DNA of 64,000 nucleotides from Alcanivorax sp. DG881 (GTDB taxonomy: Bacteria > Pseudomonadota > Gammaproteobacteria > Pseudomonadales > Alcanivoracaceae), in the NCBI RefSeq assembly GCF_000155615.1, contig NZ_DS989915.1, forward strand, positions 3,698,847-3,762,846. The letters are read 5' to 3'. Below, in pieces: positions 19,091 through 37,229 of the stretch; position 1 is the first letter of the stretch, and every line of letters begins with the position of its first letter. The notes under the pieces were generated by a model. The model worked only from the letters and a program-made list of their open reading frames with translations, did not search any database and was not told the origin of the DNA. The translations under genes and the position numbers were made by a program.

Positions 19091-19237
19091 CCGCTGTAGG
19101 AGTTCCCTTCCAGGGGACGAACCGCGCGCAGCGCGAAGGGCGTTCTCGGTATGGCAGGGCGGGATGGATTTTTAGCGTACTGCTGCTTAGCGTTTTGCCA
19201 CCTTCGTTCGCGCCCTTAACGGCGCTCCTACAGCGGC
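19091..19237. repeat. palindromic intergenic repeat (CCGCTGTAGGAG...CTCCTACAGCGG)
   Basis: The ends CCGCTGTAGGAG and GCTCCTACAGCGG are inverted around about 120 nt, which also contains imperfect inverted stretches (CGCGCAGCGCGAAGGGCG / CCTTCGTTCGCGCCC). This is REP-like material without a 7-nt period. The last bases resemble the first bases of the window. Confidence 0.7.
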
Positions 19238-19309
19238 TTTGTAGCAAGTGATGGATGTTGAAAGCGGAGAGTGAGTTTGCCTCGCCGCGGTTCGACGAAG
19301 GAGAACACA

Positions 19310-20080: not shown

Positions 20081-20303
20081 TCGGTTTTATGCATTTCTTT
20101 GCCCTGCTGTCCAGCGGGGCGTTATTTCCTATTCAGGAAAATACTACTTTAGAACAATAGCGCCTTCAGTCTTAAGACCATAGAGTAATGGAAGATACAG
20201 GCTGTTTAGACTGGTTTGGTCATTGTTTGAGCCAGCTAAACATGGAGTCTCTGACGATAAGTACAATAACCCAGTACTTCAGGGTGACAGGAGGGCGCCG
20301 TTC

Positions 20304-20987: not shown

Positions 20988-21132
20988 GCATGCTCTGTGG
21001 CTCGGTTTGTTATGACAAATCGAGTAACAAAAGCCCAACGACTGTTTCCTTCACTAGGACAACAATATTCCGCAGAATTAGCCAGCAAAGGCGCCAGGAA
21101 AGAGCGCGACAATAAAAATCCGGGAGAGTCTG

Positions 21133-22290
21133 ATGACTGCCGCTCCTCTAAACGCTGTGCTAACCACGTTCAGTAATGCCGTCGATGAAGAGATTGCAGC
21201 TGCTGAGCTGGCTGCAAAGTTAAAAAACCCGAACTTGGGTTTCGTGCTGTTTTTTTGCTCAGTGGAATATGATCTTGATCGTTTGGCCGCAGCCATGCGG
21301 GACAACTTCGCTGGGATCCCCATGTCAGGCTGTACTTCCTGTGGTGAAATTACCTCCAAGGGCTATGATCAAGGATCGATTGTGGCCATAGGCTTTGATC
21401 GCCGGCTATTCACTGTCAGCCAGAAGCTTGTGGAAGATGTAGACCGTTTCGGTCTTCTCGATGCTCAACAGCTTGTTGATAGTTTGCTAACCGAGTGCAG
21501 TGACGGCGTTACCGGGACAGCATCTGAGAACAATACCTTTGTGTTGACGCTAATGGATGGACTATCAGTAAATGAAGAGATGGTTTTGGCTACCCTTAAC
21601 TCGGCATTAGGCAGTATTGCTTGTTTTGGCGGTTCCGCAGGTGATGAATATCGATTAAATGGCACTTATGTCTATAGTGATGGAGGATTCACCAGCGAAG
21701 CCGCCACGGTGATAATGATTTCTACCTCATTAGATTTTGAAGTGTTCAGCACCCATCACTTAATCCCGGAAAAAAACAAGTTTGTCGTTACCTCCGCAGA
21801 TCCTGAAAAACGTACCGTCTACGAATTAAACGCTGAACCGGCGGCGAAAGCCTACGCACGGCTGATTGGTGCTTCAGTTGAAGATCTGGACGATATGAAA
21901 TTTGCTTGCTCGCCTTTGGCTGTACGGATTAATGATGGCTACTATGCGCGTTCAATCCAGCGAGTTAATGATGACCTTAGCCTGACGTTTTATTGTGCTG
22001 TTGAAAATGGCATCGTTTTAACAGCTATGAAAACGGACTCTTTGCTTGATGATCTTGAGACCAAACTCAGTGCTATTGAGCGTCGCATGGGGCCGTCATG
22101 GTTAACGCTAGGATGTGACTGTTGCATGCGTTATGCGCAAATTGAATCTGAGGGGTTGGTGGATCAGGCATCTGCATTGCTCCGTCGATACGGGGTGATT
22201 GGTTTTAGTACCTATGGGGAGCATGTTGACGGTATGCATCTTAACCACACGCTGACCGGGGTCGTCATTGGACAAAGAAACCGTCTCTGA
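21133..22290 (+). CDS. FIST domain sensory protein
   Basis: A 385-residue soluble protein with FIST-N (about residues 25-220) and FIST-C (about 230-370) regions. FIST domains are thought to bind small ligands, possibly amino-acid-like, and feed them to signalling proteins. Motifs seen include MSGCTSCGEI and GGSAGDEYRLNGTYVY. The gene lies between a response regulator and a hybrid kinase; it overlaps the kinase gene by 23 nt, so translation is coupled. It probably senses a signal for the alcohol oxidation cluster. ATG 21133 has CGGGAGAG 5 nt upstream. Confidence 0.85.
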   Translation: MTAAPLNAVLTTFSNAVDEEIAAAELAAKLKNPNLGFVLFFCSVEYDLDRLAAAMRDNFAGIPMSGCTSCGEITSKGYDQGSIVAIGFDRRLFTVSQKLVEDVDRFGLLDAQQLVDSLLTECSDGVTGTASENNTFVLTLMDGLSVNEEMVLATLNSALGSIACFGGSAGDEYRLNGTYVYSDGGFTSEAATVIMISTSLDFEVFSTHHLIPEKNKFVVTSADPEKRTVYELNAEPAAKAYARLIGASVEDLDDMKFACSPLAVRINDGYYARSIQRVNDDLSLTFYCAVENGIVLTAMKTDSLLDDLETKLSAIERRMGPSWLTLGCDCCMRYAQIESEGLVDQASALLRRYGVIGFSTYGEHVDGMHLNHTLTGVVIGQRNRL

Positions 22291-23677
22291 GCAGGGGCCG
22301 TCAGAGGAGGGGGAACGCTCTCCCTGGGATCTCCATGAAGCACGGCTGATGGCGGAGAATGCCAGGCTGAGCAGGATTTGTGATGCCCTTATAGAAAGGG
22401 TGGAGGCCAGCAATATGGCCCCTACAGCCCCCTACGCAGCATTTCAGCATTCCGTGGTTCTGGCTGAACAGGTGCGTGAACGGACACAGGCCCTACGTGA
22501 TGTAAACCAGAAACTACTGGAAGAAATCGAAGAACGTCGGCACACAGAAATGCAGTTGCGTGAAGCGCGGGAAAAAGCTGAGCAGGCTAACCTTTCCAAA
22601 ACTCGCTTTGTTGCAGCAGTGAGCCATGACTTGATGCAGCCGTTGAATGCGGCACGACTTTTCACCAGTGCCTTGCAGGAAAAGCCCGATAATATGGCGT
22701 TTCAGCTTGCTCATATCGGCACGGCGCTTACTGACCTTGAGTCACTCATAACGACACTTTCAGATGCTTCCAAGCTGGATGCCGGCGTGGTGACGGCTGA
22801 GTTTGAAGTCTTTCCCTTGAGCCGCTTGCTGGATGTGCTTGCTGAAGAGTTTAGGAAAATTGCTCAGCAGAAAGGACTTCGTTTTCGCTATGTGTCTTGT
22901 GGTTCACTGGTTAGATCTGATTCACAATTATTAAGCAGAATCCTTCGTAACCTCCTTTCCAACGCGGTTCGTTATACCGAGAGCGGGTCAATTCTATTGG
23001 GGTGCCGTAAACGTGGCGCGGGCATTGAAGTCGTAGTCACTGATACAGGGATTGGTATCAGTGATGACCAGCGTAACGAGATATTTAAAGAGTTTAAACG
23101 TGGCAAGCAGGCGGTAAGGCATCATGAAAGAGGGCTCGGGCTAGGGCTGGCAATTGTAGAAAAAATTAGCGAGATACTTTCACATCCGTTGCGTTTTCAT
23201 TCTCAAGAAGGGAAAGGGTCAAGCTTTGGCTTGTTGATCCCGATTGCTGAACCTGACGAATATATCCACCGGACATTGCCGGCAGATCCTTTTGTTGATC
23301 AGTCTCTGCAGGGGTTGCGTGTCTGGGTCGTGGATAACGACGAGGCAATTTGCATAGGTATGCGAACGCTGATGGAGGGTTGGGGCTGTGATGTGGTAGT
23401 GGCTGATTCTTTAGCGTCTTTACGATCCAAGGTGGACACTTGCTCTGACGACGCGGATGTCTTGCTGATGGATTATCATCTGGATCCAGGAACAGATGAC
23501 GGTATTACTGTCGCAACCTTTATCAATTCCGGTCGTCAAATTCCATTACCGGTAATATTGGTAACTGCTGATCGCAGTGCAGAGTTGAAACAACGCTGTG
23601 TTCAAAATGGATTTACGCAGATTTACAAGCCGCTGAAGCCGCTGAAATTGAAAATGGCATTGAAAAGCTTATCTTGA
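22268..23677 (+). CDS. hybrid histidine kinase/response regulator (ErcS'/NahK-like)
   Basis: A 469-residue soluble kinase. A coiled-coil (about residues 60-110) leads to a HisKA domain with the phospho-histidine at about 120 (AVSHDLMQPLNAARLF). An ATPase domain follows with N, G1 (TDTGIGIS) and G2 (RGLGLGLAIV) boxes. The C-terminal receiver has its aspartate at about 402 (LLMDYHLDPG). No membrane segment is present, so input probably comes from the coupled FIST protein. The sequence around the histidine is typical of the NahK/ErcS' group. The start is a TTG at 22268 inside the FIST gene; a start further in cannot be excluded. Confidence 0.85.
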   Translation: MDKETVSEQGPSEEGERSPWDLHEARLMAENARLSRICDALIERVEASNMAPTAPYAAFQHSVVLAEQVRERTQALRDVNQKLLEEIEERRHTEMQLREAREKAEQANLSKTRFVAAVSHDLMQPLNAARLFTSALQEKPDNMAFQLAHIGTALTDLESLITTLSDASKLDAGVVTAEFEVFPLSRLLDVLAEEFRKIAQQKGLRFRYVSCGSLVRSDSQLLSRILRNLLSNAVRYTESGSILLGCRKRGAGIEVVVTDTGIGISDDQRNEIFKEFKRGKQAVRHHERGLGLGLAIVEKISEILSHPLRFHSQEGKGSSFGLLIPIAEPDEYIHRTLPADPFVDQSLQGLRVWVVDNDEAICIGMRTLMEGWGCDVVVADSLASLRSKVDTCSDDADVLLMDYHLDPGTDDGITVATFINSGRQIPLPVILVTADRSAELKQRCVQNGFTQIYKPLKPLKLKMALKSLS

Positions 23678-23726
23678 AGGCTAAAAGGAAAGGAGGCGAG
23701 GCCTCCTCCTGATAGAAGAGAGGGCC

Positions 23727-24413
23727 CTAGGGTCCCGGTCCGTCTTTATACGCCCAATCAAAGGGGCAAGCGGTGCAGCCGTGCATATCCATACTCTGAA
23801 AGTTCCCATAACGCAGGTTTGCACCGTCAAGATTGGCATTGCGTAAACTGGAAAGGTTGAGCTTAACCTCTTGAAGGTTGGCATCCTGGAGGTTCGCGCC
23901 ATTGAGTTTTGCTTTATTAAACCAGGCCATCTCCAGGTTGACGCCTGTCATATTGGCATTGTTCCATTCAGAACGAGTCAGCCGGCCAAACTCCAAATTC
24001 GCACCAGTTGCATCCACGTTGTGAAAAATTGCTTTCTGGGCAAACAGGTTCCAGCTTTGTATGGCAAGCAAGCGAGCGCCGGTAAGGTCTGCCATGCGCA
24101 GGTTGGTGCTCATTAGGCGCGCCCGGCTCATATTCGCGTTGCGAAGATTGGCTTTTTCTAAATTGACCCCTTTAAGGTTGCTGTGCCGCAAATCAGCGCC
24201 TTCAAGGTTGGCGCCTGCAAAGTTAGCACCCGTCAGGTCCAGGCCACTGAGATCTGCACCTTTTAGATCTGCACCAGCACATTCCGTCGCAGGCTTGAGT
24301 GAACATCCATTGTGGCTGGGGATGTCCGCGCTAAAGTCATCCGCATAAGTCCCACCGTTAAGGGCCAGAAAAGCGATTAGGGTTATTGCTCGAGGTAGCG
24401 TTATATATTTCAT
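23727..24413 (-). CDS. exported pentapeptide-repeat protein
   Basis: A 228-residue protein with a signal peptide (MKYITLPRAITLIAFLALNG, cleaved near GTYA). More than 20 pentapeptide repeats of the A(D/N)LxX type follow from about residue 55 to 215, as in GADLSGLDLTGANF, which fold as a right-handed beta helix. C-terminal cysteines lie in MHGCTACPFDW. A similar protein lies next to exaA in P. aeruginosa (PA1981, from memory). Its role is unknown, probably periplasmic scaffolding. It sits behind the alcohol dehydrogenase terminator on the same strand. ATG 24413 has CAGGAG upstream. Confidence 0.85.
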   Translation of the reverse strand: MKYITLPRAITLIAFLALNGGTYADDFSADIPSHNGCSLKPATECAGADLKGADLSGLDLTGANFAGANLEGADLRHSNLKGVNLEKANLRNANMSRARLMSTNLRMADLTGARLLAIQSWNLFAQKAIFHNVDATGANLEFGRLTRSEWNNANMTGVNLEMAWFNKAKLNGANLQDANLQEVKLNLSSLRNANLDGANLRYGNFQSMDMHGCTACPFDWAYKDGPGP

Positions 24414-24430
24414 TTTATGCTCCTGAAAGA

Positions 24431-24460
24431 AGTCAGCCCGCAATGCGGGCTGACTTTTTT
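24431..24460 (-). terminator. hairpin between the alcohol dehydrogenase and pentapeptide genes
   Basis: AGTCAGCCCGC-AAT-GCGGGCTGACT is a perfect 11-bp stem with T6 on the plus strand and TTCTTTC on the minus strand. It lies directly after the dehydrogenase stop and before the pentapeptide ribosome site, so it probably reduces read-through. Confidence 0.7.
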
Positions 24461-24461
24461 G

Positions 24462-26345
24462 TTACTTGCTCGCTAGATCCTTGGCAAATTTGGGCAGTTT
24501 AAACACCCAGAAAGAACCGCCTTGAGAGATAGGCTTGGTTAGTTCTGCCATGTCACCGCCCCAGAGAGGTACTGCACCGCCGTACCCGGCTGTTACACCA
24601 ATGTACTGCTCGCCATCCATTTCCCACGTGATCGGTGGGGAAATGATCCCGGTACCGACCTGGAACTTCCACAGCTCTTCACCCGTTTTCGCGTCAAAGG
24701 CTTTGAAGTAGCCATCACCGGTACCGGTGAACACCAGGTTGCCTTTGGTTGCGAGCACGCCAGCCCAGAGAGGCATGGGTTCTTTATGTTCCCAGGCCAC
24801 TTTACCGGTAGCCGGATCCATAGCACGGAGAATGCCAACGTGGTCGTCGAACAACCGTTTGATGCGGAAACCCATGCCTAAGTAGGCAGAACCAGGCTGA
24901 TATTCAACCTCTTCAGTCCAGTAATCTTCTTTCCAGTGGTTGGCAGGAACGTAGAACAGGCCCGTGTCCTGGCTATACGCCATAGGGTTCCAGTTCTTGC
25001 CGCCAAGGAAGGGAGGAGAGACTTCCGCTGCAGGGGATCGGGTTTCGCCATCCTTGAGACGTGCAGGACGCTGACCATCGACTTCAATGGGGCGGCCGGT
25101 ATCCAGATCAATACCTTTAGCCCAAGTAATGCCGTCTACGAATGGGAATGCATTGAGAAGTTTACCGTTAGCACGGTCGGTCACATAGAAGAAACCATTG
25201 CGGTCAGCGTGAGCGCCGGCTTTATGTTTCTTGCCTTTCTTGTCCTTGTAGTCAAAGAGAACGATTTCGTTATTACCCGAGAAATCCCAGGCATCGTTAG
25301 GTGTATGTTGATAGAACCACTTGATTTCACCGGTAGTTGGATCAACACCGACTTGGCCTGATGTGTATAGGCTATCGTAGTCGGCAGGGTCACCGTCTGG
25401 TGCAGTACGCGCCCAGCCGTTCCAGGGAGCCGGGTTGCCAGCGCCGATGATGATGGTGTTGGTTGATGCATCAAAGGTAGCGCTTTGCCATGGTGCACCA
25501 CCACCTTGGCTCCAGGCTTTCACTTTACCTGTTTCTGTATTGGGGTCATCAGGCCAGCTAGGCGCTCTGGGATCACCACTCGGGGTGCTGTCTTCACCGT
25601 TAAGGCGGCCAACGTGCCCTTCCACAAAAGGACGCATCCAGACTTCTTCGCCCGTTGCAGGGTCGCGGGCAAACAGTTTCCCGACAACACCAAATTCGTC
25701 ACCGGAAGAGCCATGAATTAACAAAACCTTACCGGTTTTTTGATCTTTAACAATGGTTGGCGCGCCAGTCATTGTATAACCGACTTTATGATCGCCGAAC
25801 TTTTTACGCCAAACGACCTTACCCGTGTCTTTGTTCAGAGCCACTACGCTGGCATCAAGAGTGCCAAAGAAAATGTTGTCGCCATAAATGGCGGCACCGC
25901 GGTTTACAACATCACAGCAAGGACGAATGTCGTCAGGTAGACGATGTGAATAAGTCCAGATGCGTTTTCCAGTTTTGGCATCAACAGCGAAAATACGGGA
26001 GTAGGAACCCGTTACGTAGATCACGCCTTCATGCACAAGGGCTTGAGATTCCTGGCCTCGCTGCTTTTCATCACCGAATGAGTAAGACCAGGCGGGGGTA
26101 AGCATAGAGACATTTTCGCTATTAATGTCCGCTAACGTGCTGTATCGCTGGGCGCTGGTGCCCATGCCATACATTAGAACATCTTCAGTGGTTTTATGGT
26201 CATTGGCGATATCTTTCCAGGTGACCCCTTCTTCAGCAATAACTGTCCCGCTACTGCATGCGGTCAGCATGGTGGACATCGATATGACACCGATCATGCG
26301 GGACAGTCTCCCGCGATGCGGTGGGTTGTGGGTTGTTTTACTCAT
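24462..26345 (-). CDS. exaA: PQQ-dependent alcohol dehydrogenase (quinoprotein ethanol dehydrogenase type)
   Basis: A 627-residue periplasmic beta-propeller enzyme that oxidises primary alcohols to aldehydes with PQQ, passing electrons to cytochrome c. The adjacent cysteines of the PQQ disulphide ring are at about 143-144 ([10 protein letters not shown]). Tryptophan-docking repeats (DAxTGxxxW) recur. The catalytic aspartate is at about 354 in [10 protein letters not shown]. The residue two places later is Ser, not Asp, which predicts a Ca2+ enzyme (ExaA/PedE) rather than a lanthanide PedH/XoxF type. The signal contains a possible lipobox MLTAC (Cys 30). It is divergent from the cytochrome gene. 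Confidence 0.93.
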
Positions 26346-26628
26346 AACGCAGCCTCTGCTTTGATTTTAATATCTGATCACACTGGCAGAAATGCGATCA
26401 GGGTATGGAAAGTTACGGCGTGCCAGTTATCGATAATCCCCAGCAACGCGGTGTATCCATTCAGGCAGAGAGAGGGGGATGCAAGATACCGTCAGTGGAA
26501 GTAAATGATCTAACCATTTGGGTCTACGACTAAGGGAGTACGCATGATGGCCCGAAGGGCTAGTGCTGAATCTGTCAGGTGACTGTTAGATTAATTTCCA
26601 TAATGCAATCCATTGGTTGGAGTGAAGT

Positions 26629-27069
26629 ATGAATGTAATGATGCGCATAGTGGGAAGTGTGGCCTTATTAGGTTGCTCTGTGGTGGTCCATGGCCACGGT
26701 AATGTGACTCCACAAGGCGTAGATCTTCGCGGGTTGGAGACTCTTGGTGAGGAGTGGCGCGATACCAACCCTTACCGTGAAGATCATCCGCAGCATGAAT
26801 TGGCTGTGGATATTGGCAGCTCTGCGTATAACCAGAACTGTGCAGCTTGTCATGGCCTGGAAGCCAAGTCGGGAGGTATAGCGCCTGATCTGCGAGAGCT
26901 GGAAAACGGTGATTACGGTGACGAATGGTACAAAGAACGGGTTGTAAATGGAGCTGTGCGCGATGGTCGCGTTCTGATGCCGAAAATGGCCGATTATCTC
27001 AGTCAGGAAGCTTTGTGGGCTATCCGAACCTGGCTTGAGACGGTCAGCATGGAAACAATGGGACAGTAA
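26629..27069 (+). CDS. cytochrome c (c-550, PedF/ExaB-like)
   Basis: A 146-residue exported c-type cytochrome. A short signal peptide precedes one haem site, CAACH (about residues 68-72), with a likely methionine ligand in RVLMPKM. Size and the N-terminal DLRGLETLGEEWRDTNPYR segment fit the c-550 that accepts electrons from PQQ alcohol dehydrogenase. It starts a plus-strand group with the SoxYZ-like and metallohydrolase genes; only 1 nt separates its stop from the next start. A GGAG site precedes ATG 26629. Confidence 0.9.
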   Translation: MNVMMRIVGSVALLGCSVVVHGHGNVTPQGVDLRGLETLGEEWRDTNPYREDHPQHELAVDIGSSAYNQNCAACHGLEAKSGGIAPDLRELENGDYGDEWYKERVVNGAVRDGRVLMPKMADYLSQEALWAIRTWLETVSMETMGQ

Positions 27070-27070
27070 A

Positions 27071-27841
27071 ATGCGATCTGTAATGGTGTTTCCCGGGCTA
27101 CTGTTCCTTCTACTTATCAGTATAAGTTCAGCGCAAGAGAACAATACTAATCAAGATAAGGATCCTCTTGATTCATTCATGTGGGAGCTATATCAGGATC
27201 GTTATCTGTCCAACGCACCAGTACATTTTGACTCGAGAGTGAAAATAACCGCCCCTGATTTTGCCGAAGACTCAGGGCAGGTTCCGGTAGAAATAGATGC
27301 CAGTCATCTTAATGGCAAGTTTGAAAAAATGCTGCTTTGGGTTGAGCTCAACCCTATACCTATGGTTTTTGAGTACAACCCCGGTACACAAGGGCTGGCA
27401 AAAGTAGGGTTGAATATCCGCCTGGAGCAAGGCTCTCCTGTCAGGGTGGCCTTGTTAAGCCAGGGTGTATGGCATGTTGGAAGCACTTTTATTGACGGCG
27501 CAGGGGGTGGTTGTTCAACACCAGGTATCGCTAATTCCGGCAAGAATTGGTCCAAAGATTTTGGTCAGGTTAGAGGGCGCAGGTTTCCTGCCAAGCAGGG
27601 TAGTCGGCTTCGTTTTTTGATTATTCATCCGATGGAAAGCGGTCTCCTTCCCAGTGAGATCCCTTTCTATATCGAAGAGCTGAAAATCAGCAGTAAAGGG
27701 GAAACGGTTGCGGATATGAAATGGCATGCCTCCATTAGTGAAAATCCAGTTTTAACGATTGAAATGAAAGGCGATGAAAGAACCCCATACAAGATGAAGG
27801 CTAGAGATAACAATGCTAATTTACTGGAATCACAAATTTGA
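27071..27841 (+). CDS. quinoprotein dehydrogenase-associated SoxYZ-like carrier
   Basis: A 256-residue exported protein with a signal peptide cleaved near SSAQ. It combines a SoxY-like N-terminal domain and a SoxZ-like C-terminal domain. The only SoxY-like cysteine motif is GGCSTP (about residue 157), internal instead of terminal as in SoxY. Such fusions occur with PQQ dehydrogenases, where they are named as associated carriers, but their cargo is unknown. It is translationally tied to the cytochrome gene and overlaps the metallohydrolase gene by 29 nt, so the three products are likely needed together. Confidence 0.85.
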   Translation: MRSVMVFPGLLFLLLISISSAQENNTNQDKDPLDSFMWELYQDRYLSNAPVHFDSRVKITAPDFAEDSGQVPVEIDASHLNGKFEKMLLWVELNPIPMVFEYNPGTQGLAKVGLNIRLEQGSPVRVALLSQGVWHVGSTFIDGAGGGCSTPGIANSGKNWSKDFGQVRGRRFPAKQGSRLRFLIIHPMESGLLPSEIPFYIEELKISSKGETVADMKWHASISENPVLTIEMKGDERTPYKMKARDNNANLLESQI

Positions 27842-28772
27842 TTATCGAGTCTTGTTATCGTTAGCTACTTTGTTTCTTGCGGCAATTTCGGCCCCAGTGC
27901 ATGGAGAAGATCTTAATATTCATCAAGTTGCGGAAAATGTATGGATGGTCCAGGGGGTGCCAGAGGAGCTTAGTGAAGAAAATAGGGGTGACATAAGTAA
28001 CAGCTCATTCATTGCCACGGGGAATGGGGTAGTGGTAATCGATACGGGGGCAACAGCTGCGTACGGTCGGAGGTTCAGAGAGGCTATTTCAGAATATACC
28101 GATGAGCCCGTTCGCTGGGTGATCAATACCCACCATCACCCGGATCATACCTTTGGTAATAGTGCATTTTCAGATGTGCCGATAATGGCGCTTTCTGAAA
28201 CACGAAATTTGTTAATGAAAAATGGTGATTTTTTTCTCAAAACAGTGCACGAACGTGTGGGAATATCTAGCGAAGACACGGTTGTTATTTTACCTAGTGT
28301 TACTGTTGAAGGTGGGGTGAAGAGTTTTTCTGGATACCCACTAAAATTAATCAGGTTTTCTGGTCATAGTGGCAATGATCTCGTTGTATATGACCCTCTG
28401 ACAAAAATTCTGTTTGCCGGGGACATGCTGTTTTGGAACCGCGCACCAACCACTCCTCACTCTCCTGGAATTGATATCTGGCTGGAAGAAATAGACCGAC
28501 TAGCAGAGCTAAACCCAGCAGTGATCATTCCCGGCCATGGCCCTCTCGCTCATGATTCGGGGCCGATTGAGCAGACACGTGCATGGCTTGTATGGCTTGA
28601 CTCCCTGATGAGAGAAGGAGTTGCTGCTGGACGTTCTGCTAATGCGCTTATAGATAGTGATATTCCTGAACTGCTTTCTGATATCCCGATGGCAAAGTTT
28701 GAGCTAACCCGAAGTATTAGTCATTTCTATCGAAAATATGAAGATTCATGGTGGGAAAACGCTAACCGTTAA
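27813..28772 (+). CDS. quinoprotein relay system zinc metallohydrolase (beta-lactamase fold)
   Basis: A 319-residue exported metallo-beta-lactamase-fold protein. The metal motif is NTHHHPDHTFGN (about residues 105-116), with further ligands in FSGHSGND, LFAGDML and IPGHGPL. The signal peptide ends near PVHGED. This matches the MBL family found beside PQQ dehydrogenases and SoxYZ-like carriers. The substrate is unknown; a thioester or persulphide on the carrier cysteine is a reasonable guess. ATG 27813 lies inside the preceding gene. Confidence 0.85.
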   Translation: MLIYWNHKFDYRVLLSLATLFLAAISAPVHGEDLNIHQVAENVWMVQGVPEELSEENRGDISNSSFIATGNGVVVIDTGATAAYGRRFREAISEYTDEPVRWVINTHHHPDHTFGNSAFSDVPIMALSETRNLLMKNGDFFLKTVHERVGISSEDTVVILPSVTVEGGVKSFSGYPLKLIRFSGHSGNDLVVYDPLTKILFAGDMLFWNRAPTTPHSPGIDIWLEEIDRLAELNPAVIIPGHGPLAHDSGPIEQTRAWLVWLDSLMREGVAAGRSANALIDSDIPELLSDIPMAKFELTRSISHFYRKYEDSWWENANR

Positions 28773-28898
28773 GACCAAATGAGGAGAAGAATTACTCCCT
28801 TGGTAGCATGCGTACTTGGGCCTCATCATCCTATTCTGACTATGCAGGCGCTACTTATCAAAGCGCGGACGTCAAGCAATTAGAAGAGGAATCAGGCA

Positions 28899-30419
28899 AT
28901 GATTTATGCAAATCCTGGTAGCGAAGGTTCAGTTGTCTCGTTTAAAGAGCGTTACGAAAACTATATTGGGGGTGAGTGGGTTGCACCGGTGAAAGGACAA
29001 TATTTCGATAATGTTAGTCCGGTAAATGGTAACGTTTTCTGTGAGGTGGCCAGATCAAGTGCGGAAGACGTGGATTTGGCTCTGGATGCCGCTCACCGAG
29101 TTGCTGGGGAATGGGGAAAAACCTCAGCGACAGAACGTAGCAACATATTGTTGAAAATCGCGGATCGTATTGAGCAGAACCTCGAGGCTCTGGCGGTCGC
29201 AGAAACGTGGGATAACGGTAAAGCTGTACGCGAAACATTGAATGCCGATTTGCCCCTGGCAGTTGACCATTTTCGCTATTTCGCTGGCTGTATTCGTGCC
29301 CAAGAAGGGTCTGCTGCAGAGATCGACTCAAATACAGTGGCTTACCACTTCCATGAACCTCTTGGGGTTGTTGGGCAAATCATTCCATGGAACTTTCCAA
29401 TCTTGATGGCTACATGGAAGTTGGCTCCAGCGCTAGCGGCGGGTAACTGCATTGTTTTGAAGCCTGCCGAGCAAACTCCGGTTTCCATTCTCAAGGTAAT
29501 GGAGTGTATTGGCGATTTGCTGCCTGCTGGTGTCCTGAATGTGGTGAACGGGTACGGTCAAGAGGCTGGTCAGGCTCTGGCATCCAGCAAGCGTATTGCA
29601 AAAATCGCCTTTACCGGTTCAACCCCTGTGGGATCTCACATTCTAAAGTGTGCTGCCGAGAATATTATCCCCTCTACTGTAGAGTTGGGTGGAAAATCTC
29701 CAAATGTTTACTTCGCAGATATTATGAACGCAGAAGAGTCGTTTATTGATAAAGCTGTTGAGGGTTTGGTTTTGGCTTATTTTAATCAAGGCGAAGTTTG
29801 TACTTGTCCTTCTCGCGCCTTGGTCCAAGAGAGTATGTACGACGACTTTATCGAGCGCGTACTGAAACGAATCAAGACGATCAAGCGTGGTAATCCGCTT
29901 GATACTGAAACTCAAGTAGGTGCACAGGCTTCTCGAGAGCAGTATGACAAAATTATGTCGTACATGAGTATTGCTAAAGAAGAAGGTGCAACGGTACTTG
30001 CGGGTGGTGGAAGTGAATCTCTTGAAGGGGACTTTGGTAACGGCTTCTATATCCAGCCGACCCTCCTTAAAGGTCACAATAAAATGCGCGTTTTCCAGGA
30101 GGAAATTTTTGGTCCAGTTGTAGGTGTGACTACCTTTAAGGACGAAACGGAAGCACTGCAGATCGCCAATGATACTGAATTTGGTCTTGGGGCTGGTGTA
30201 TGGAGTCGCGATATGAACGTTGCCTTCAGGATGGGACGTGGCATTCAGGCAGGTCGAGTCTGGACTAACTGTTATCACGCTTATCCAGCACATGCGGCCT
30301 TTGGTGGATATAAAAAATCAGGCATCGGTCGTGAGACTCACAAGATGATCCTTGACCACTATCAGCAAACAAAGAACTTGCTGGTTAGCTACGATACCAA
30401 TCCGCTTGGTTTTTTCTGA
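28899..30419 (+). CDS. exaC: NAD-dependent aldehyde dehydrogenase (ExaC-like)
   Basis: A 506-residue aldehyde dehydrogenase that would oxidise acetaldehyde or longer aldehydes made by the PQQ enzyme. The substrate-site segments [17 protein letters not shown] and FTGSTPVG bind [11 protein letters not shown] holds the general base, and the catalytic cysteine is in [10 protein letters not shown] (about residue 303). The C-terminal [22 protein letters not shown] is typical of ExaC/AcoD enzymes. It lies in the alcohol oxidation block, with its own terminator. ATG 28899 has AGAGGAA upstream. Confidence 0.93.
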
Positions 30420-30455
30420 ATGATTTCTCCTGGTCGTCCGTCTTGACGTCTTTTT

Positions 30456-30479
30456 GCCGCCCTCAGGGCGGCTTTTTTA
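30456..30479 (+). terminator. intrinsic terminator after the aldehyde dehydrogenase
   Basis: GCCGCCCT-C-AGGGCGGC followed by T7. The SelO-like gene begins only about 20 nt later, so it depends on read-through or on a promoter inside the 3' end of the dehydrogenase gene. Confidence 0.92.
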
Positions 30480-30497
30480 TTGTTGTGAGAATGAAAA

Positions 30498-31934
30498 ATG
30501 CTTGAACTTCCTGATAAGCAAGATAACCCGTGGGCAGTTCTCTCGATATCCAATTCCTGGAAGACCCTTCCACCTATGCTGTGGTCAGCCCAGGCGCCAG
30601 AATTCTCGCCTGTGGAAGATTTGATTGATATTTCGCCTATGGCGCTACGTTTATTGCAGCTCGATGTTCAGCAGCTCCGGACCCATGTTGAAGGCGTCTC
30701 AACGTTGAAAAACCTTCATGCTGGAAACATTCTCTTGCCCGGTATGTCTCCGTTGGCACAAAAGTATGCAGGACATCGCCATGGGATATTCAACGATCGT
30801 ATTGGTGATGGAAGGTCTTTGCTCTTGGGGGAAGTGGCTACGCCGTTAGGCCGTATGGAAATGTACTTAAAGGGTGGAGGAAGAACCCCTTATGCTCTTA
30901 GGGGCGATGGTTATTTGGGGTTGCGTAGTGCGATCAAGGAATATCTTGTCAGTCACGCTCTCTATGGTATCGGGATACCAACCAGTCTTCCGCTAAGTCT
31001 TTGTAATCATGAAAGAAAAATTTTCCGTAATCAGTTGGAGAAGTCTGCAACCGTGATCAGCCTTTCTCCATCTCATGCTCGAGTTGGCCATTTCGAATGG
31101 CTGGCTGCCAGGGGGAGTGCTGCAGGCATGAAGGCTTTGATTGCCCACCTTGGTGGTTGTTATGGCGAAGGTGGTGATATGAGCGTGGAGCAGTTTTTTA
31201 AACATTCTGTGCAACGCACAGCTCATCTTGCTGCTGCGTGGCAGGTCTGGGGGTTTGTTGCTGGCACACTGAATACCGATGATATTTCCGCTCTAGGTGT
31301 GACTCTTGATCCCGGCTCAGGAGCTTTTCTGGAATCTTGCCAGGCTTCACTGACAGAAGACTGCGATGCAGTTGACAGTGTATATGCATTTTCTTCTCAG
31401 TCAGAATCTATCAGGTTTGGTCTTGAGGTGTTGGGCAGGGCATTACGACTGCTGCTGCACGAAGAGCAAATAAACGCCATATTAGAGAGCTTTGATGATC
31501 AGCTTGAAAAAGCGATGCTATGTGGCATGCGCTCTCGCTTGGGGTTGATGATGTCGAGAGATGAAGATTCAGCATTGATTAACCAGTGGCTATCCATCCT
31601 GCATCGCAAGGGGGCAGATTACAATTCTTCATTCCGTTATTTAATGGAATGGAAAGATGATGAATCCAGTGACCACTATTTGGCTGATAAGTTAGGTCTT
31701 GAGCGTAACGATAGACTTCTGGGTGAGTGGTTAAATGATTATCGTAAACGTCTTGAAAATGAATGTTTTACCTACCGTGAACGCTACCGTTTCATGGCTG
31801 GAGTTAATCCGATAACAATGCTTAGAGAGCGCGATATTTGTGACGTTAGTGCTGCTGTGGAGGCCGGCGATTTCATCCCTTTGGCTCGTTTGAGAAAGCG
31901 AATTACACAGCCGTACCATAATTTTCTTCAATAA
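30498..31934 (+). CDS. divergent SelO/YdiU-like protein (possible pseudokinase AMPylase)
   Basis: A 478-residue protein that follows the SelO/YdiU pattern throughout: LLPGMSPLAQKYAGHRHG, IGDGRSLLLGE, LKGGGRTPYALRGDG, SPSHARVGHFEW and GVNPITMLRERD. SelO enzymes transfer AMP to proteins. Key positions differ: the usual MNTDNMS is LNTDDIS, and DYGPFGF is DPGSGAF. The first Asp is kept, the metal-binding Asn is Asp, and the second metal Asp is kept. The usual C-terminal redox Cys/Sec is absent. It may be an altered or non-AMPylating paralogue. Its place in the alcohol oxidation block is unusual. Confidence 0.82.
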   Translation: MLELPDKQDNPWAVLSISNSWKTLPPMLWSAQAPEFSPVEDLIDISPMALRLLQLDVQQLRTHVEGVSTLKNLHAGNILLPGMSPLAQKYAGHRHGIFNDRIGDGRSLLLGEVATPLGRMEMYLKGGGRTPYALRGDGYLGLRSAIKEYLVSHALYGIGIPTSLPLSLCNHERKIFRNQLEKSATVISLSPSHARVGHFEWLAARGSAAGMKALIAHLGGCYGEGGDMSVEQFFKHSVQRTAHLAAAWQVWGFVAGTLNTDDISALGVTLDPGSGAFLESCQASLTEDCDAVDSVYAFSSQSESIRFGLEVLGRALRLLLHEEQINAILESFDDQLEKAMLCGMRSRLGLMMSRDEDSALINQWLSILHRKGADYNSSFRYLMEWKDDESSDHYLADKLGLERNDRLLGEWLNDYRKRLENECFTYRERYRFMAGVNPITMLRERDICDVSAAVEAGDFIPLARLRKRITQPYHNFLQ

Positions 31935-31938
31935 AAAA

Positions 31939-31964
31939 AGGGTGAGAGCCTTGGCGCTCACCCT
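31939..31964. terminator. bidirectional terminator between the SelO-like and porin genes
   Basis: AGGGTGAG and CTCACCCT pair around a 10-nt loop, with A-rich and T-rich flanks, between convergent genes. Confidence 0.82.
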
Positions 31965-31985
31965 TTGATATTTAGGGATTATCAA

Positions 31986-33152
31986 TTACCAGGCTACAGT
32001 GGCCCCCACTGCAAGTGTGTCAGTTGTTTCTATTTCGCCTACTACTTCGTCATCCAACTCAACACGACTGAAGTTGGTTACCAGGTTAAGATAATCATTT
32101 GCTGCGTAGCTTATAATTACGCCTTTATTTTCGTAATCAATCGCTGTTCCACCAGTAACGCCATCATCTTCGGTCCGGCCATAGGTTCCTGCAACTCGCA
32201 TTTTTCCGATTTGATAACCCGCTTGCATAAGGTGGCCATTGCTATCAACTTCCTGGAGAGGGAGTTGGCCGGCATTATTTGTGAACAAAGGGTGGATGCC
32301 TGTAGCATCAAAACCGGAAGCGGTGAGGGTTAAATTCGCGACTTTAATTTGGGCGCCGTAGCCTACGCCTTCTGAGGTGATATCAGCAACGGTACTATCA
32401 GTATTTTCTGAGTTCTGATAAGCGCCATTAACCCACGTATAAACCTCCATTCCCGCAATTTCTGCCTGGTAGCTGATTTCACTTTCTACTCTTGGGGTGT
32501 CTTGATATGCCTTCCCTGGAGCACCCACTTCATTGGTGTCGTATGGGTCTAGAATGCCGATCGCAATGTTCAGGCCGCCCATTTCAGGGCTCCGCCAGGT
32601 GATCTGCGAGCTGGGGAAGGGGTAGGGGTAGCCGGTGCCGATATTCCCGAAAGATACGCCTCCGCCATCAACGAGGCCCACGACATCGCTGGAATGGCCA
32701 AACCCTGTGAGCAATTCGTCTCGGAGGATGTTGGAACGGGCAAAGAGCCCGAAATCTTTACCAATAAGCACCTCGCCGAAGCTGCCACCAATAGTTCCAT
32801 AAAACTGACGTACATCAATAGCCGTGCCGGTGGCGGCAGTTTCACTGTCATTAATGGTGACCCAGAAGGACGACCTTGCACCCAGTGTAAGATCGCCTAT
32901 TTCTCGCTTCATATTGAAGCCAATATAGTTTGGCAGGAAACCCATTTTAACTCTGGATTGTCTGCGATCGAATTGATCGCCGGCACGGTCTACATCGTTG
33001 TTTACATAAAAGGCATTAATGTAACCGTCAGTGCTGAAGCTGGTTCCGTCATCGTCATACAGTGTTATTTCGGCATTGGCTGGCTGCACTGCGAGGAGGG
33101 GTAGAAGGCATAATGCCGACCGGGATAGAGTTGTTACTCTGGTTTTTTTCAT
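31986..33152 (-). CDS. outer-membrane porin (gram-negative general porin type)
   Basis: A 388-residue exported barrel protein. The signal peptide ends at PANAE (about residue 28). The mature N-terminus ITLYDDDGTSFSTDGYINAFY and the repeated amphipathic strands fit the Porin_4 family. The last residue region ADTLAVGATVAW ends in an aromatic, as needed for barrel assembly. It may let small alcohols or organic acids into the periplasm for the PQQ system; this is inferred from position. An AGGGAGCG ribosome site precedes ATG 33152. Confidence 0.85.
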   Translation of the reverse strand: MKKTRVTTLSRSALCLLPLLAVQPANAEITLYDDDGTSFSTDGYINAFYVNNDVDRAGDQFDRRQSRVKMGFLPNYIGFNMKREIGDLTLGARSSFWVTINDSETAATGTAIDVRQFYGTIGGSFGEVLIGKDFGLFARSNILRDELLTGFGHSSDVVGLVDGGGVSFGNIGTGYPYPFPSSQITWRSPEMGGLNIAIGILDPYDTNEVGAPGKAYQDTPRVESEISYQAEIAGMEVYTWVNGAYQNSENTDSTVADITSEGVGYGAQIKVANLTLTASGFDATGIHPLFTNNAGQLPLQEVDSNGHLMQAGYQIGKMRVAGTYGRTEDDGVTGGTAIDYENKGVIISYAANDYLNLVTNFSRVELDDEVVGEIETTDTLAVGATVAW

Positions 33153-33288
33153 CTTACGCTCCCTGAAGTTTCTATCATGTGATAGCAGTGAGTATGGGGA
33201 GCGTAAAATGAAGGAAGAATACCGCCTTGGTACTGTATTCAGTGATTGTAATATAGCGTTTGGTCGTGCGACTAAAGGATCAATTTAA

Positions 33289-33311
33289 TAAAAAAATATA
33301 ATATATTTTTT
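33289..33311 (-). terminator. A/T-rich palindrome after the peroxiredoxin gene
   Basis: AAAAAATAT and ATATTTTTT pair around a 3-nt loop directly past the peroxiredoxin stop. It could act as a weak terminator; the stem is entirely A-T. Confidence 0.4.
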
Positions 33312-33312
33312 A

Positions 33313-33987
33313 TCAGGGGAGGGGTGTGTATTTCAGGTAGGGAAGAATGGCTTCCTCCTGATCGGGAAAGAGAGCCTTTGAATCACTGTCAGATAATTTT
33401 GGTGAAATAATCGCGTTGTCACCAGGTTGCCAGTCTGCAGGTGTTAATACCGGGTAACGATAAGTGGTTTGTAAGGCATCAATAGCTCGTAGAATCTCAT
33501 CAAAATTCCGCCCAATGCTGGGTGGGTAATCTATTTTCAGGCGAATGCGCCCACGCGGATCAATGATAAAAACGCTGCGCACTGTTGTTACGTTATTCGA
33601 ACGTGGATGCAGCATGCCGTAGCGTGTGCTGATATTTAGCGACTGATCCGATATAACAGGAAAGGATGGGCGGACACCCTGGCTTTCTTCAATGTCATCA
33701 AGCCATTCTTTGAGGTCACGCAGTGGACTCACTGCCAAAGCGAGTGGGCGTACGTTTCGTTTTTCAAAGGCGCCTTGTAAACGCTCCACTGCAGCGAGCT
33801 CGGTAGTGCATACCGGAGTGAAGCTGGCTGGATGAGAAAACAACACGACCCAGTGATCCTTCCTCCAGTGATCGAGGTGCACGGGCCCCATAGTGGTTTC
33901 GGCCTCAAAATCCGGCGCTGCATCACCCAGCTGGAGAGCCCGAAGGGGAAGGGAGTATATCAGTAGCGCCACTAACCAATATTTCAT
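33313..33987 (-). CDS. exported 1-Cys peroxiredoxin
   Basis: A 224-residue peroxiredoxin of the Prx6/AhpC-like fold. A signal peptide (KYWLVALLIYSLPLRA) would send it to the periplasm, unusual for this mainly cytosolic family. The peroxidatic cysteine lies in HPASFTPVCTTE, with the conserved threonine and a later arginine. No resolving cysteine is apparent, and the C-terminal TYRYPVLTPADWQPGD fits the Prx6 dimer extension. It starts 2 nt after the TonB receptor stop, so the two are co-translated. It may protect the periplasm from peroxide; this is inferred. Confidence 0.87.
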   Translation of the reverse strand: MKYWLVALLIYSLPLRALQLGDAAPDFEAETTMGPVHLDHWRKDHWVVLFSHPASFTPVCTTELAAVERLQGAFEKRNVRPLALAVSPLRDLKEWLDDIEESQGVRPSFPVISDQSLNISTRYGMLHPRSNNVTTVRSVFIIDPRGRIRLKIDYPPSIGRNFDEILRAIDALQTTYRYPVLTPADWQPGDNAIISPKLSDSDSKALFPDQEEAILPYLKYTPLP

Positions 33988-33989
33988 GC

Positions 33990-36050
33990 TTACCACCGCA
34001 AAGTTACTCCAGCATACAAGGTTCGACCAGGCGCTGTTTCGAAATAGCCGCGGTCAGCGGGGTCTGGCCTGTCGCTATTGGCATTGATTCGAATGTTGCT
34101 GTAATAGTCACGGTCGAAAAGATTGTTAATGCCGGCGTGCAACTCCAGCTCCTGGTGATTGAAATGCCAGCGTTTTCCAAATCGCGCATTAACCACTGCA
34201 TGGCTTCCTATGCGAGTTTGGTTGGTGTTCTCCGCATACACTTCACTGGCAAAACGAACATCACCAATAACAAAAAAGCCGTTTTGAGGACGCCAGGCGG
34301 CTTCGGCAAAAACGATATGCTGTGGCAAGCCAGGCATGTGGTTATCGCTTACATCGACACCTTGTTGTTCATCGAAGAATCGATCGAAGCGGTATTGTGC
34401 CCATGTCCATGCGACCGTTGTGGTCAGTGTTTCTGTGGTGAAATGCTCTAACGATAGTTCAATGCCTTCACGACGTGTGCGGGCCGCATTTTCGTAGTAG
34501 GTTCGGCCGCCCAGTTCATAAGGGGTTATCTCGTCTTTGACGGCTACGCTAAATAGCGTGAGATCATAGAGTAGATCGTTACTGATGGTGCCGCGGATGC
34601 CAAGCTCCTGATTTAATGCCTTTTGTGGTTCAAGGTCTGGATTGAACCCGCCTGCGCCGGACGGATTTGCCAGCTCAGTGAAAGTGGGGGTTTCAAAGGC
34701 TGAACTGACAGAGGCATAGAGTGTATGAGCAGGAAGGGCATGCCAGGCAACGCCGGCACTAAAACTACCTTCATTAAACTGCTGTTCGCCGCTGTCGTCA
34801 CCATCACTCAGGAAATCATCCTCCACCTTAAACTGGATTCGGTCGGCTCTTGCTCCTAAAGAAAGAGTGAGATTGTCGGTTAGAAAGGTATCGGTTTGTA
34901 CAAAGATGCCACTGCTGGTGGCGATCTGGTCTTCATTGGCGGTGAGCCCGGTAATCACCCCGTTGAAACTAACGCCCTGGCGACCTCGGTCGTCTTGTTG
35001 ACGTTCTACGTCAACGCCGACCAGATAGCGGTGCCTCAAGCCGAAGAGGTCTAGATTATGACTATACTCTACGCCTGCACCATAAAACGTCCGCTGGTAA
35101 TCAATCAGGCTGCTACCGGGAAATGGGAGTTGTTGGGTGAAGTCGCGTTGGCTAATGAATGCCCGTGTCTGTAATACGCCTCCTGCCAAGGAGGTATTGC
35201 GATAACGGAAGCCTAGGCGTTGTTGATCAACCTCCTGGCCTGCATCCAGTCGATCGGCAAGCATTGTGGCCTGCTTTCTGTCTGTGTGAGCCTGGGAACG
35301 GGTTAGTCCGCCAGGATCCTGGGCATAAGGAGTGTCTAATGCCGTCAGGAACAGGTCTATTTCCTGATGGTTGCCGAGCTCCCAACCAATCCGGCTGTTA
35401 AGTTGGTATTTCTCCACCGCGCTTTGATCACGGTAGCCGGCGTAATTGAGACCGCTGACGCCAATATAATAATGAGCATTATCTTTCTGGCCGCCGCTCT
35501 TTAAGTGGGCTTTGCGAAAGCCATCTGCGCCACTCGATAACCTCAGCTCACCATTTCCCGTTATGTTCCGCCCGGAAAGAGTTTCAATATCGATGACGCC
35601 ACCGGTGGCATTGCCATAGAGAACGGAGGCTGGACCACGTAATACTGTTGCCTGGTGCATGGAGTCCAAGTCGATATTGTCTACCTGTGATTGTCCATCC
35701 GGTAGTGTTTCGGGAAATCCATCTACCCGGACTCGTAAACCGCGAACACCAAAGGGCGCGCGCGCGCCAAAGCCTCGAATGGAAATGCGTTGATTTTGAG
35801 CGAAATTGTAGCGATTTTGCAGGTAAAGACCGGGCACCCGGGCGAGGCTTTCATCAAGTTGAATATTCTGTTGCCCCTGTTGGGCAGAGTCTGCATTTAC
35901 GACGCTAACGGCGGCAGGGGTATCAAGAAGACTGCGCTCCATCCGCGTGCCATCAACCTTTATGACATCCAGCTCTGAGGGCTCGGCCAGGGCGGTTAAG
36001 GGAATGTTGATTGTCGCAAGTCCAAAGGCGATTCGCTTCAATGAGAGCAT
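33990..36050 (-). CDS. pqqU: TonB-dependent receptor, PqqU/YncD-like
   Basis: A 686-residue outer-membrane receptor. The signal ends near ALAEP, followed by a plug domain with DTPAAVSVV, VPGLYLQNRYNFAQ, ISIRGFGARAPFGVRGLRV and VDGFPETLPDGQSQVDNIDL. The C-terminal barrel ends in YAGVTLRW. These plug motifs closely match, from memory, E. coli YncD, now called PqqU, which imports PQQ. The gene lies in a PQQ dehydrogenase block that lacks pqqABCDE, so uptake of PQQ is plausible. Siderophore uptake is the main alternative. It is co-transcribed with an exported peroxiredoxin. Confidence 0.85.
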   Translation of the reverse strand: MLSLKRIAFGLATINIPLTALAEPSELDVIKVDGTRMERSLLDTPAAVSVVNADSAQQGQQNIQLDESLARVPGLYLQNRYNFAQNQRISIRGFGARAPFGVRGLRVRVDGFPETLPDGQSQVDNIDLDSMHQATVLRGPASVLYGNATGGVIDIETLSGRNITGNGELRLSSGADGFRKAHLKSGGQKDNAHYYIGVSGLNYAGYRDQSAVEKYQLNSRIGWELGNHQEIDLFLTALDTPYAQDPGGLTRSQAHTDRKQATMLADRLDAGQEVDQQRLGFRYRNTSLAGGVLQTRAFISQRDFTQQLPFPGSSLIDYQRTFYGAGVEYSHNLDLFGLRHRYLVGVDVERQQDDRGRQGVSFNGVITGLTANEDQIATSSGIFVQTDTFLTDNLTLSLGARADRIQFKVEDDFLSDGDDSGEQQFNEGSFSAGVAWHALPAHTLYASVSSAFETPTFTELANPSGAGGFNPDLEPQKALNQELGIRGTISNDLLYDLTLFSVAVKDEITPYELGGRTYYENAARTRREGIELSLEHFTTETLTTTVAWTWAQYRFDRFFDEQQGVDVSDNHMPGLPQHIVFAEAAWRPQNGFFVIGDVRFASEVYAENTNQTRIGSHAVVNARFGKRWHFNHQELELHAGINNLFDRDYYSNIRINANSDRPDPADRGYFETAPGRTLYAGVTLRW

Positions 36051-36187
36051 GGGATTTACGGCTTTGTTGTTAGTGTGAGGTTTACGCTATTGGCTTCGGC
36101 GCTCCTTCTCAATAGATGCAGTGCGAAAGTAGTAGGCATTTTCTCCGTAAGTCGCAGTTTCGCTGTTGTTATCCGTAACGGAGTCCC

Positions 36188-36220
36188 ATAAAAAAAGGCT
36201 GCGAGAAGCAGCCTTTTTTT
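36188..36220 (-). terminator. intrinsic terminator between pqqU-like and hydrolase genes
   Basis: AAAAAAAGGCTGC-GAGAA-GCAGCCTTTTTTT. T-runs are present on both strands. It ends the minus-strand hydrolase transcript whose stop is about 20 nt away. Confidence 0.92.
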
Positions 36221-36237
36221 ATGGCAGGAAAAGAAAC

Positions 36238-37173
36238 TCAGTGAGTTTTTTTGCCCTTGCGCTGGCTGGCTTGAGCATGTTGCTCGGTGAGCATGCCATC
36301 GGCACCGAACAGTTTTTCGCGCCATTCGTCCAGCAGGGCGTCGGTGTCGTGCTGGGAGGGGTGGAAGTCCCGCTTGAAGAAATCCAGGTACTGGGGCGCC
36401 AGTTTGGTGAATAGCCCCTTGCGGCCGAACAGGAATTTCATGCCCTGCCAGTTGTTTTTCAGCTGCAGCAGGCGGCCGTCTGAGGCCAGCATGCGGGCCT
36501 GGAACACGGCCAGTACGGCAAAGAAAATCACGGTGGTGGGGATCATGGCTCCCGCACGAATAGCGTAACTACCGCTGACCTTTTCATAGACATCATAGGC
36601 GACGGTTTTGTGTTCGTTTTCTTCCAGAGCGTGCCATAGCCACAGTTTTGCGGTGGCTTCATCGAGGATTTTTGCCTGGTGCTCACTTTCGCGCAGCAGT
36701 TGTTCGGCAATGATCGCAGTGTAATGCTCGAGACACACGGTGGCGGCCAGCTGGAAGATCTTGGGGGTGCGTTTTTGCACCAGGCCCAGCAGTTTGCCCA
36801 ATGACTTGTCCAGCTTGTCAGTGGGGTAGCCGAATTTCACGCCCATTTCGTTCCAGGCTTCATGCTCTTTGCTGTGCATGGCCTCCTGACCAATAAAGCC
36901 GGCCACTTGCGCTTTCAGCTTGCCGTCGGTGATGTCTTTACGGTAGTGGCGCACGGAGTCCACGAAAAAGGCTTCACCTTCCGGGAACAGGGCCGACAGG
37001 CTCAACCAGAATGCGCTCAGGAAAGGGTCATTGTCATAGAAGTAACGCGCCGTGGTCTTGTCATCGAACTGGAAGTCGAGACGACGGGGCGGAATATTGA
37101 CGGTGGCGCCTAACGGGACTTTCTGGGCCTTTGCCTGGCCGGACGCAATGGTGGTGGATGCTGTTGTTGTCAT
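36238..37173 (-). CDS. metal-dependent hydrolase (PF10118-type)
   Basis: A 311-residue protein of the predicted metal-dependent hydrolase family COG3687. It has the di-metal-like motifs GQEAMHSKEHEAWNE (about residue 106), CLEHYTA and WHALEENEHKTVAYDVYE, spaced like a ferritin/desaturase helix bundle. One hydrophobic segment (MIPTTVIFFAVLAVFQA) may attach it to the membrane. Its substrate is unknown. ATG 37173 has AGGAGG 6 nt upstream, so the 15-residue extension is rejected. A perfect palindrome lies about 40 nt upstream of the start. Confidence 0.85.
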   Translation of the reverse strand: MTTTASTTIASGQAKAQKVPLGATVNIPPRRLDFQFDDKTTARYFYDNDPFLSAFWLSLSALFPEGEAFFVDSVRHYRKDITDGKLKAQVAGFIGQEAMHSKEHEAWNEMGVKFGYPTDKLDKSLGKLLGLVQKRTPKIFQLAATVCLEHYTAIIAEQLLRESEHQAKILDEATAKLWLWHALEENEHKTVAYDVYEKVSGSYAIRAGAMIPTTVIFFAVLAVFQARMLASDGRLLQLKNNWQGMKFLFGRKGLFTKLAPQYLDFFKRDFHPSQHDTDALLDEWREKLFGADGMLTEQHAQASQRKGKKTH

Positions 37174-37210
37174 GGTGTCCTCCTGATCTCTGGCGGCAGG
37201 GGCGCCGCTG

Positions 37211-37229
37211 AATGTCACACTGTGACATT
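37211..37229 (-). promoter_or_regulatory. perfect palindromic operator upstream of the hydrolase
   Basis: AATGTCACA-C-TGTGACATT, 9+1+9 with no mismatch, located 38 nt before the hydrolase start codon. This shape fits a dimeric repressor such as a TetR protein, but no regulator gene of that type is adjacent. Confidence 0.6.

Follow-up and report, generated by a model that had tools for sequence, protein, structure and literature searches.

The window, i.e. the whole 64,000-nucleotide stretch analysed here, contains a low-GC block (20000-36230) bounded on the left by an ORF at 19187-19978 and on the right by a metal-hydrolase gene at 36238-37218. The block is headed by regulatory genes on the plus strand (20223-23677), namely an ErdR-like response regulator (20223-20987, below the cut-off of its model), the nitric-oxide-sensing protein NosP (21133-22290, over cut-off) and a hybrid histidine kinase of the NahK/ErcS family (22268-23677, C-terminal subfamily model over cut-off), a set hinting that nitric oxide controls alcohol oxidation. 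On the minus strand follow a pentapeptide-repeat protein (23727-24443), which takes the pedD position beside pedE, and a PQQ-dependent ethanol dehydrogenase of the Ca-type ExaA/PedE kind (24462-26345). Back on the plus strand we identified cytochrome c-550 PedF (26629-27069), the likely electron acceptor, a quinoprotein dehydrogenase-associated SoxYZ-like carrier (27035-27841, start uncertain), the SoxH-related quinoprotein relay system zinc metallohydrolase 1 (27813-28772) and the acetaldehyde dehydrogenase ExaC (28899-30419, 972.6 bits), all over their cut-offs. Directly 3′ of ExaC lies a SelO-family gene (30498-31934, plus strand), which reached the Pfam cut-off and missed those of NCBIfam. 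The earlier note on this DNA had already seen a SelO-like gene after exaC, in the place where, as that note said and as we also take to be the case, pqqABCDE stand in P. aeruginosa.

The rest of the block is on the minus strand and consists of a Gram-negative porin (Porin_4, 31986-33152), a peroxiredoxin with a 1-cysPrx_C domain (33313-33996) and the receptor gene (33990-36050). Porin and peroxiredoxin were assigned by domain models, and their order is kept in genomes G007, G019, G030 and G033, so that the place of the peroxiredoxin is shared by five genomes of two genera. The listed GTG start of the peroxiredoxin, whose position is putative, overlaps the end of the receptor gene by 7 bases, and the two genes probably form an operon.

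The receptor is encoded by an ORF of 686 aa with an ATG start that spans exactly 33990-36050. It contains the plug (69 bits) and barrel (170 bits) domains of TonB-dependent receptors. Of the NCBIfam models PqqU scores highest (411.6 bits, E 5.6e-123), with a siderophore-receptor model as runner-up (191.9 bits), and in a search of the PDB the E. coli YncD/PqqU structures 6v81 and 9c4o came out far ahead (E ~4e-93; next E 6e-13). The suspicion of a PqqU-like receptor raised before was thus confirmed. However, the curated cut-off of the PqqU model (NF041535) is 1200 bits and the receptor scores only about one third of it, which counts against the PqqU reading. Since 411.6 bits is below 1200, the receptor is by that rule outside the NF041535 equivalog, and we named it PqqU-type via the published residue criterion. 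The E. coli control reaches this cut-off and none of the 94 genomes in our set (G000, which holds the window, and 93 relatives) does.

According to the available part of the publication on E. coli PqqU (PMC12124388), PqqU is recognised by an aromatic residue at position 99 together with R304 and R365. Aligned to the E. coli protein, our receptor has F99, R304 and R365, the likeness is full-length, and Q84, Q121, Q308 and R536 are kept as well. It differs in having Q at K274, L at Q310 and N at Y481, the first of which counts against the PqqU reading; the same source, as far as available, reports that a change of K274 to glutamate slows growth of E. coli (PMC12124388). PqqU matches (E 1e-60 or better) were found in 38 of the 94 genomes, a lower bound as at most 11 receptor candidates were scored per genome. 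Each of the 38 is an open reading frame of 668-716 aa with F99, R304, R365, Q84, Q121 and Q308; R536 is present in 37 of them, and 37 also have Q at the K274 position. Among ten named loci that we checked, nine carry the aromatic residue at 99 with R304 and R365, the exception being a 28%-identical Ignavibacteria receptor. The nearest named genomes at the receptor are Alcanivorax, with 97, 72 and 58% identity.

In the receptor tree the 38 matches form a single clade with E. coli PqqU (support 0.998), and the E. coli controls BtuB, FhuA and FepA (the last without its C-terminal end) fall elsewhere, as do the 15 other plug-bearing receptors of G000. The phenylalanine and the two arginines occur together in none of these 15, which were found with the plug model, and in none of the three controls, although the alignment of distant loops is rough. 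A siderophore or cobalamin receptor, the placement that the earlier note had named as refuting its proposal, was rejected, tree position and residues both weighing against it.

TonB receptors of one fold switch ligand easily, so the receptor could import something else (a siderophore, cobalamin, a lanthanide carrier or another small acid) and stand close to a PQQ enzyme by chance, a reading to which the missed cut-off and the glutamine at position 274 also lend themselves. We consider it very unlikely, given that the core PQQ contacts are kept in 38 of 38 matches, that the receptor stands apart from BtuB, FhuA, FepA and the 15 other receptors of its genome, that the dehydrogenase has a serine at position 318 like ExaA and not the aspartate of PedH, and that the gene order is common to five genomes of two genera. 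The receptor is therefore best read as PqqU-type and very likely a PQQ importer, with high-affinity binding and import of PQQ as its predicted function.

Regarding the dehydrogenase (24462-26345), the TIGR03075 model gave 769.7 bits, over its cut-off, and the alignment with ExaA (1FLG) runs nearly end to end (1133 bits). E179, N266, D316, S318 and the vicinal Cys-Cys (numbers counted from 1FLG) are kept. We presume that E179, N266, D316 and the cysteine pair have their usual roles in the Ca-type enzyme and that an aspartate at position 318 goes with lanthanides; PedH (6zcw/6zcv) aligns an aspartate there. By its residues the enzyme is of the Ca-type ExaA/PedE kind without the lanthanide aspartate, and because S318 is as in ExaA and not as in PedH, there is no need to invoke a lanthanide receptor and this candidate was rejected. 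The PQQ dehydrogenase announced for this locus is thus real, but it does not lie beside the receptor as had been stated, since 7.6 kb separate the two genes.

We searched the genome of G000 (3.80 Mb, 2 contigs, 99.98% complete) for pqqB, pqqC, pqqD and pqqE, the search being confined to these four genes. There was no match to PqqB or PqqC at E 0.001, to PqqE at E 1e-20, or to PqqD at E 0.001, the PqqD model being positive in 3 of 14 control genomes. As a positive control, PqqB, PqqC and PqqE exceeded their cut-offs in an identical set of 14 of the 94 genomes. The genome-wide search for pqqA-E that had been proposed was in this way carried through for pqqB-E with no finds, the statement that biosynthesis genes are missing held for these four genes, and the option of combining uptake with synthesis elsewhere in the genome was not borne out. 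What stands is the other option of the earlier note: scavenging of PQQ from outside by G000 is strongly supported by the missing pqqBCDE, the PqqU residues and the common clade with E. coli PqqU. PqqC was found in none of the 17 genomes of the genus and PqqU in at least 14 of them (5 and at least 36 of 46 genomes, respectively, in the family), and from these counts the genus appears to depend wholly on outside PQQ.

A scavenger of this kind is the ordinary case, as the available part of PMC12124388 records PqqU for 1861 genomes from 22 phyla and finds that just 23% of PqqU producers have synthesis genes. Synteny of PqqU with the synthesis operon is, by the same part of that source, generally absent except in four Burkholderiales genomes, and linkage of PqqU to the dehydrogenase does not come up in it (PMC12124388). 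PQQ scavenging via PqqU is therefore already known as widespread, and our receptor adds one more case to a described kind; the interesting part is the package of enzyme and receptor. Among the matches listed in a search of open-licence PMC articles, judged by titles and the starts of abstracts, there was no paper on PQQ scavenging in Alcanivorax or Alteromonas.

The ethanol dehydrogenase may not be the only enzyme served. Outside the window, G000 encodes a soluble aldose sugar dehydrogenase (C2:2721352-2722335, 421 bits; closest PDB entry 2g8s, E 8e-98), likely its second PQQ enzyme. This enzyme, and the low-GC block shared by receptor and dehydrogenase, go beyond what had been noted before. 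A strong match to the soluble sugar dehydrogenase is present in all 14 PqqU-bearing genomes of the genus, and the alcohol dehydrogenase in only 2 of its 17 genomes, G000 and G007. In the family, all 14 genomes with a quinoprotein of the methanol/ethanol family carry PqqU, and at least one quinoprotein was found in 36 of 36 PqqU genomes vs 5 of 10 without a PqqU match (Fisher p=0.0002, relatedness uncorrected). These 5 of 10 have a strong sugar dehydrogenase, which counts against the PqqU reading. Moreover, 12 of the 34 genomes with a methanol/ethanol-family quinoprotein in the 94-genome set have neither a PqqC nor a PqqU match (PqqU counts being lower bounds), and PqqU is thus not the sole answer in the order.

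In the genus, 12 of the 14 genomes with PqqU combine a strong sugar dehydrogenase match with the lack of the alcohol dehydrogenase, which would also suit a reading in which the genes are leftovers, the enzyme being empty in nature and the receptor serving mainly the sugar dehydrogenase, or nothing. This is quite unlikely in our judgement, as the block genes are open frames with their catalytic residues kept and the DNA identity of G000 to G007, 98.6-100% in the dehydrogenase part as against 76-95% upstream, looks like recent spread and not decay. An enzyme and receptor in use remains the reading that we follow.

Of the 14 genomes with both PqqU and a methanol/ethanol-family quinoprotein, 8 have the two within one fetched stretch (7 of 9 without pqqC and 1 of 5 with it). 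We claim no test of linkage from these numbers, because 4 of the 5 pqqC genomes are near-copies and the linked enzyme in G018 and G042 is a different one. In G032, G018 and G042 (loci L145, L146 and L147; a third genus) a second methanol/ethanol-family quinoprotein, 35-36% identical to the window's dehydrogenase, is found 7.3 kb away on the other side of PqqU together with an aldehyde dehydrogenase.

The block resembles the Pseudomonas exa/ped clusters described in the available part of PMC12997753 in its pentapeptide protein (pedD), ExaA/PedE, PedF, SoxYZ-like and SoxH-like proteins and ExaC-type aldehyde dehydrogenase. However, in our case ExaC is followed by SelO, the porin, the peroxiredoxin and PqqU; the sole TonB passage in the available text of that paper concerns LutH, and PqqU is absent from it (PMC12997753). 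In E. coli, mcbR and yncE flank pqqU, whereas the receptor described here is part of an alcohol-oxidation block. To the plasmid-borne PqqU of Rahnella it is only distantly similar (33% identity).

The base composition sets the block apart. Its gene groups have 46-52% GC and the flanks 57.7% (left) and 58.7-59.5% (right); 1-kb bins between 20 and 36 kb show 45-53% and all other bins of the window 52-64%. In 18 other stretches of the G000 genome the GC content was 55.8-62.5%. The left break is seen also in G007. The block stretches of G019, G030, G033 and G032 have 60-73% GC, so the donor was not identified among the sampled relatives, a point against the proposed transfer.

The usual arrangement at this site, present in most genomes of the genus that we looked at, is acyl-CoA dehydrogenase, APH-like gene, SDR, the ORF corresponding to 19187, PqqU, metal hydrolase and aldehyde dehydrogenase. 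In G000 and G007 the genes from the regulators to the peroxiredoxin lie between the ORF and PqqU (the G007 contig stops just past PqqU), and in G004 and G012 the regulators and ExaC alone occupy the site, at 56-62% GC. The gene order of the block is common to G019, G030 and G033, which belong to another genus, and a shorter version occurs in G032 from a third. Apart from G000, 13 genomes of the genus were found to carry PqqU, and in 12 of these the PqqU at this site is a different one. No mobility genes were found among the subset of window ORFs scanned by domain and family models, no tRNA in the window and no direct repeats flanking the block; these negative results speak against a simple single transfer. 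We propose homologous exchange at the shared site as the route by which the block entered.

The trees of the receptor and of its left-hand neighbours disagree. The receptor is 97% identical to that of G007, 72% to those of G019 and G030 and 55-59% to the 12 other receptors of the genus. The three left-flank genes have 83-92% identity to the genus (G007 left out) vs 73-82% to G019 and G030, and 75-87% to G042 and G044 of the third genus. In the PqqU tree, G000 and G007 join G019 and G030 (98/91) and a single clade of the genus is rejected (AU test, p=0.0031); the PqqU of the 12 other congeners sits on a long stem of 0.4. In the tree of the three left-flank genes the genus holds together (100/100) and grouping with the other genus is rejected (p=7e-7), the placement of G000 within the genus not being fixed. 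On the right side, the MetH tree puts G000 with G001, G003, G006, G010 and G011 (support 0.94). For regulators plus ExaC, the best tree keeps the genus together at 56/92, and grouping with the other genus is not rejected (p=0.36). Both marks of an island, a composition break and a tree conflict with the flank, are hence present, the conflict being shown by PqqU and not by regulators plus ExaC; the latter result speaks against a simple single transfer.

Besides the left-flank genes, the genes around the sugar dehydrogenase and PepN were used as species markers. PepN is 74-79% identical to congeners and 96% to G007; in the other genus, the surroundings of the marker yielded no PepN. The comparison of the sugar dehydrogenase with the second genus is weak, because the copies there may be paralogues. 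A marker initially taken for GyrB (L182:4851-7220) was dropped, as it proved closest to VolA/Pla-1 phospholipases, a variable gene. Identity of this VolA/Pla-1-like phospholipase is patchy among congeners, with 81% to G008 and 52-60% to G007, which suggests that the gene has been swapped.

Some of these data would also agree with a block ancestral to both genera, kept here and lost in congeners with a fast-changing PqqU, with no transfer at all. G030 agrees with G000 in the genes of the block, their order and the left neighbours, the congeners G004 and G012 keep regulators and ExaC at the site with ordinary GC, the regulator and ExaC trees do not demand a transfer, and the long stem of the other congeners' PqqU would fit rapid change. 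Nevertheless, we find this unlikely in view of the GC content, which breaks at either end of the block and, on the left, does so in G007 too, the rejection of a genus clade for PqqU next to left-flank genes that behave normally, and the MetH tree, which nests G000 among five congeners that are block-less in the fetched stretches. Transfer is the reading that we prefer, and the genes for alcohol oxidation apparently came in together with a receptor of their own, which replaced the resident PqqU. With one PqqU match among the 11 of 21 candidates scored in G000, and none of its 15 other plug-bearing receptors in the PqqU clade, it seems that the resident gene gave way to the incoming one.

Part of the block may have moved again. 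In a comparison of G000 with G007 by 700-base tiles, the 14 tiles starting at 19,200-28,300 are 98.6-100% identical, the 16 tiles before them 76-95% and the 11 tiles after them (from ExaC to PqqU) 90-96%, some of the outer tiles being only part-aligned. The dehydrogenase half thus probably spread recently, by exchange between the G000 and G007 lines.

Taken as a whole, we regard the following explanation as highly probable. Powered by TonB, the receptor would bring PQQ through the outer membrane when its concentration outside is low. As the dehydrogenases served would be periplasmic, no inner-membrane step for PQQ would be needed, and the periplasmic cofactor would fill the block's Ca-type ethanol dehydrogenase and probably also the soluble aldose sugar dehydrogenase encoded elsewhere. 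Electrons from the ethanol dehydrogenase would pass to PedF and ExaC would complete the oxidation. Because the known PQQ pathway was not found in G000, the enzymes should stay empty unless neighbours supply PQQ, and growth on alcohols would hinge on PQQ released by them. The 16-kb block with the receptor and the alcohol-oxidation genes would have come from an unsampled lower-GC lineage, the incoming receptor taking over the chromosomal site of the PqqU resident in the genus. Receptor and enzyme would thus be physically coupled in one block, in a genus with hydrocarbon-degrading marine relatives. It seems that a foreign enzyme here brought along the receptor for its cofactor, and the cofactor dependence of an alcohol oxidiser becomes directly testable via a single receptor deletion.

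A similar pair is found on plasmid pTE101a of Alteromonas macleodii (NZ_CP018322), where the genes of a PQQ dehydrogenase and of a PqqU-type receptor, the latter with its signature complete, lie 5.8 kb apart on one strand, and no pqq gene is annotated in the 34-kb stretch (L265, NZ_CP018322.1 148701-182692). In contrast to our block, the pair is plasmid-borne, the partner genes are other ones and the dehydrogenase is just 31% identical to that of the window. The strain may still have a pqq operon elsewhere: among the 60 of 214 records listed, which name 10 genera, Alteromonas does not appear, and there are 21 further names beyond these. It is possible, and we offer it only tentatively, that in marine Gammaproteobacteria alcohol-oxidation genes travel as a cofactor-auxotroph package of empty quinoprotein, electron carrier, accessory genes and receptor with no PQQ pathway, the incoming receptor displacing the resident one, and that pTE101a carries a second, independent package. 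If that were true, the cofactor supply line, and not synthesis, would be the unit assembled by selection for shared metabolites. The dehydrogenase and receptor genes of pTE101a are located near IS200 and Tn3 transposases.
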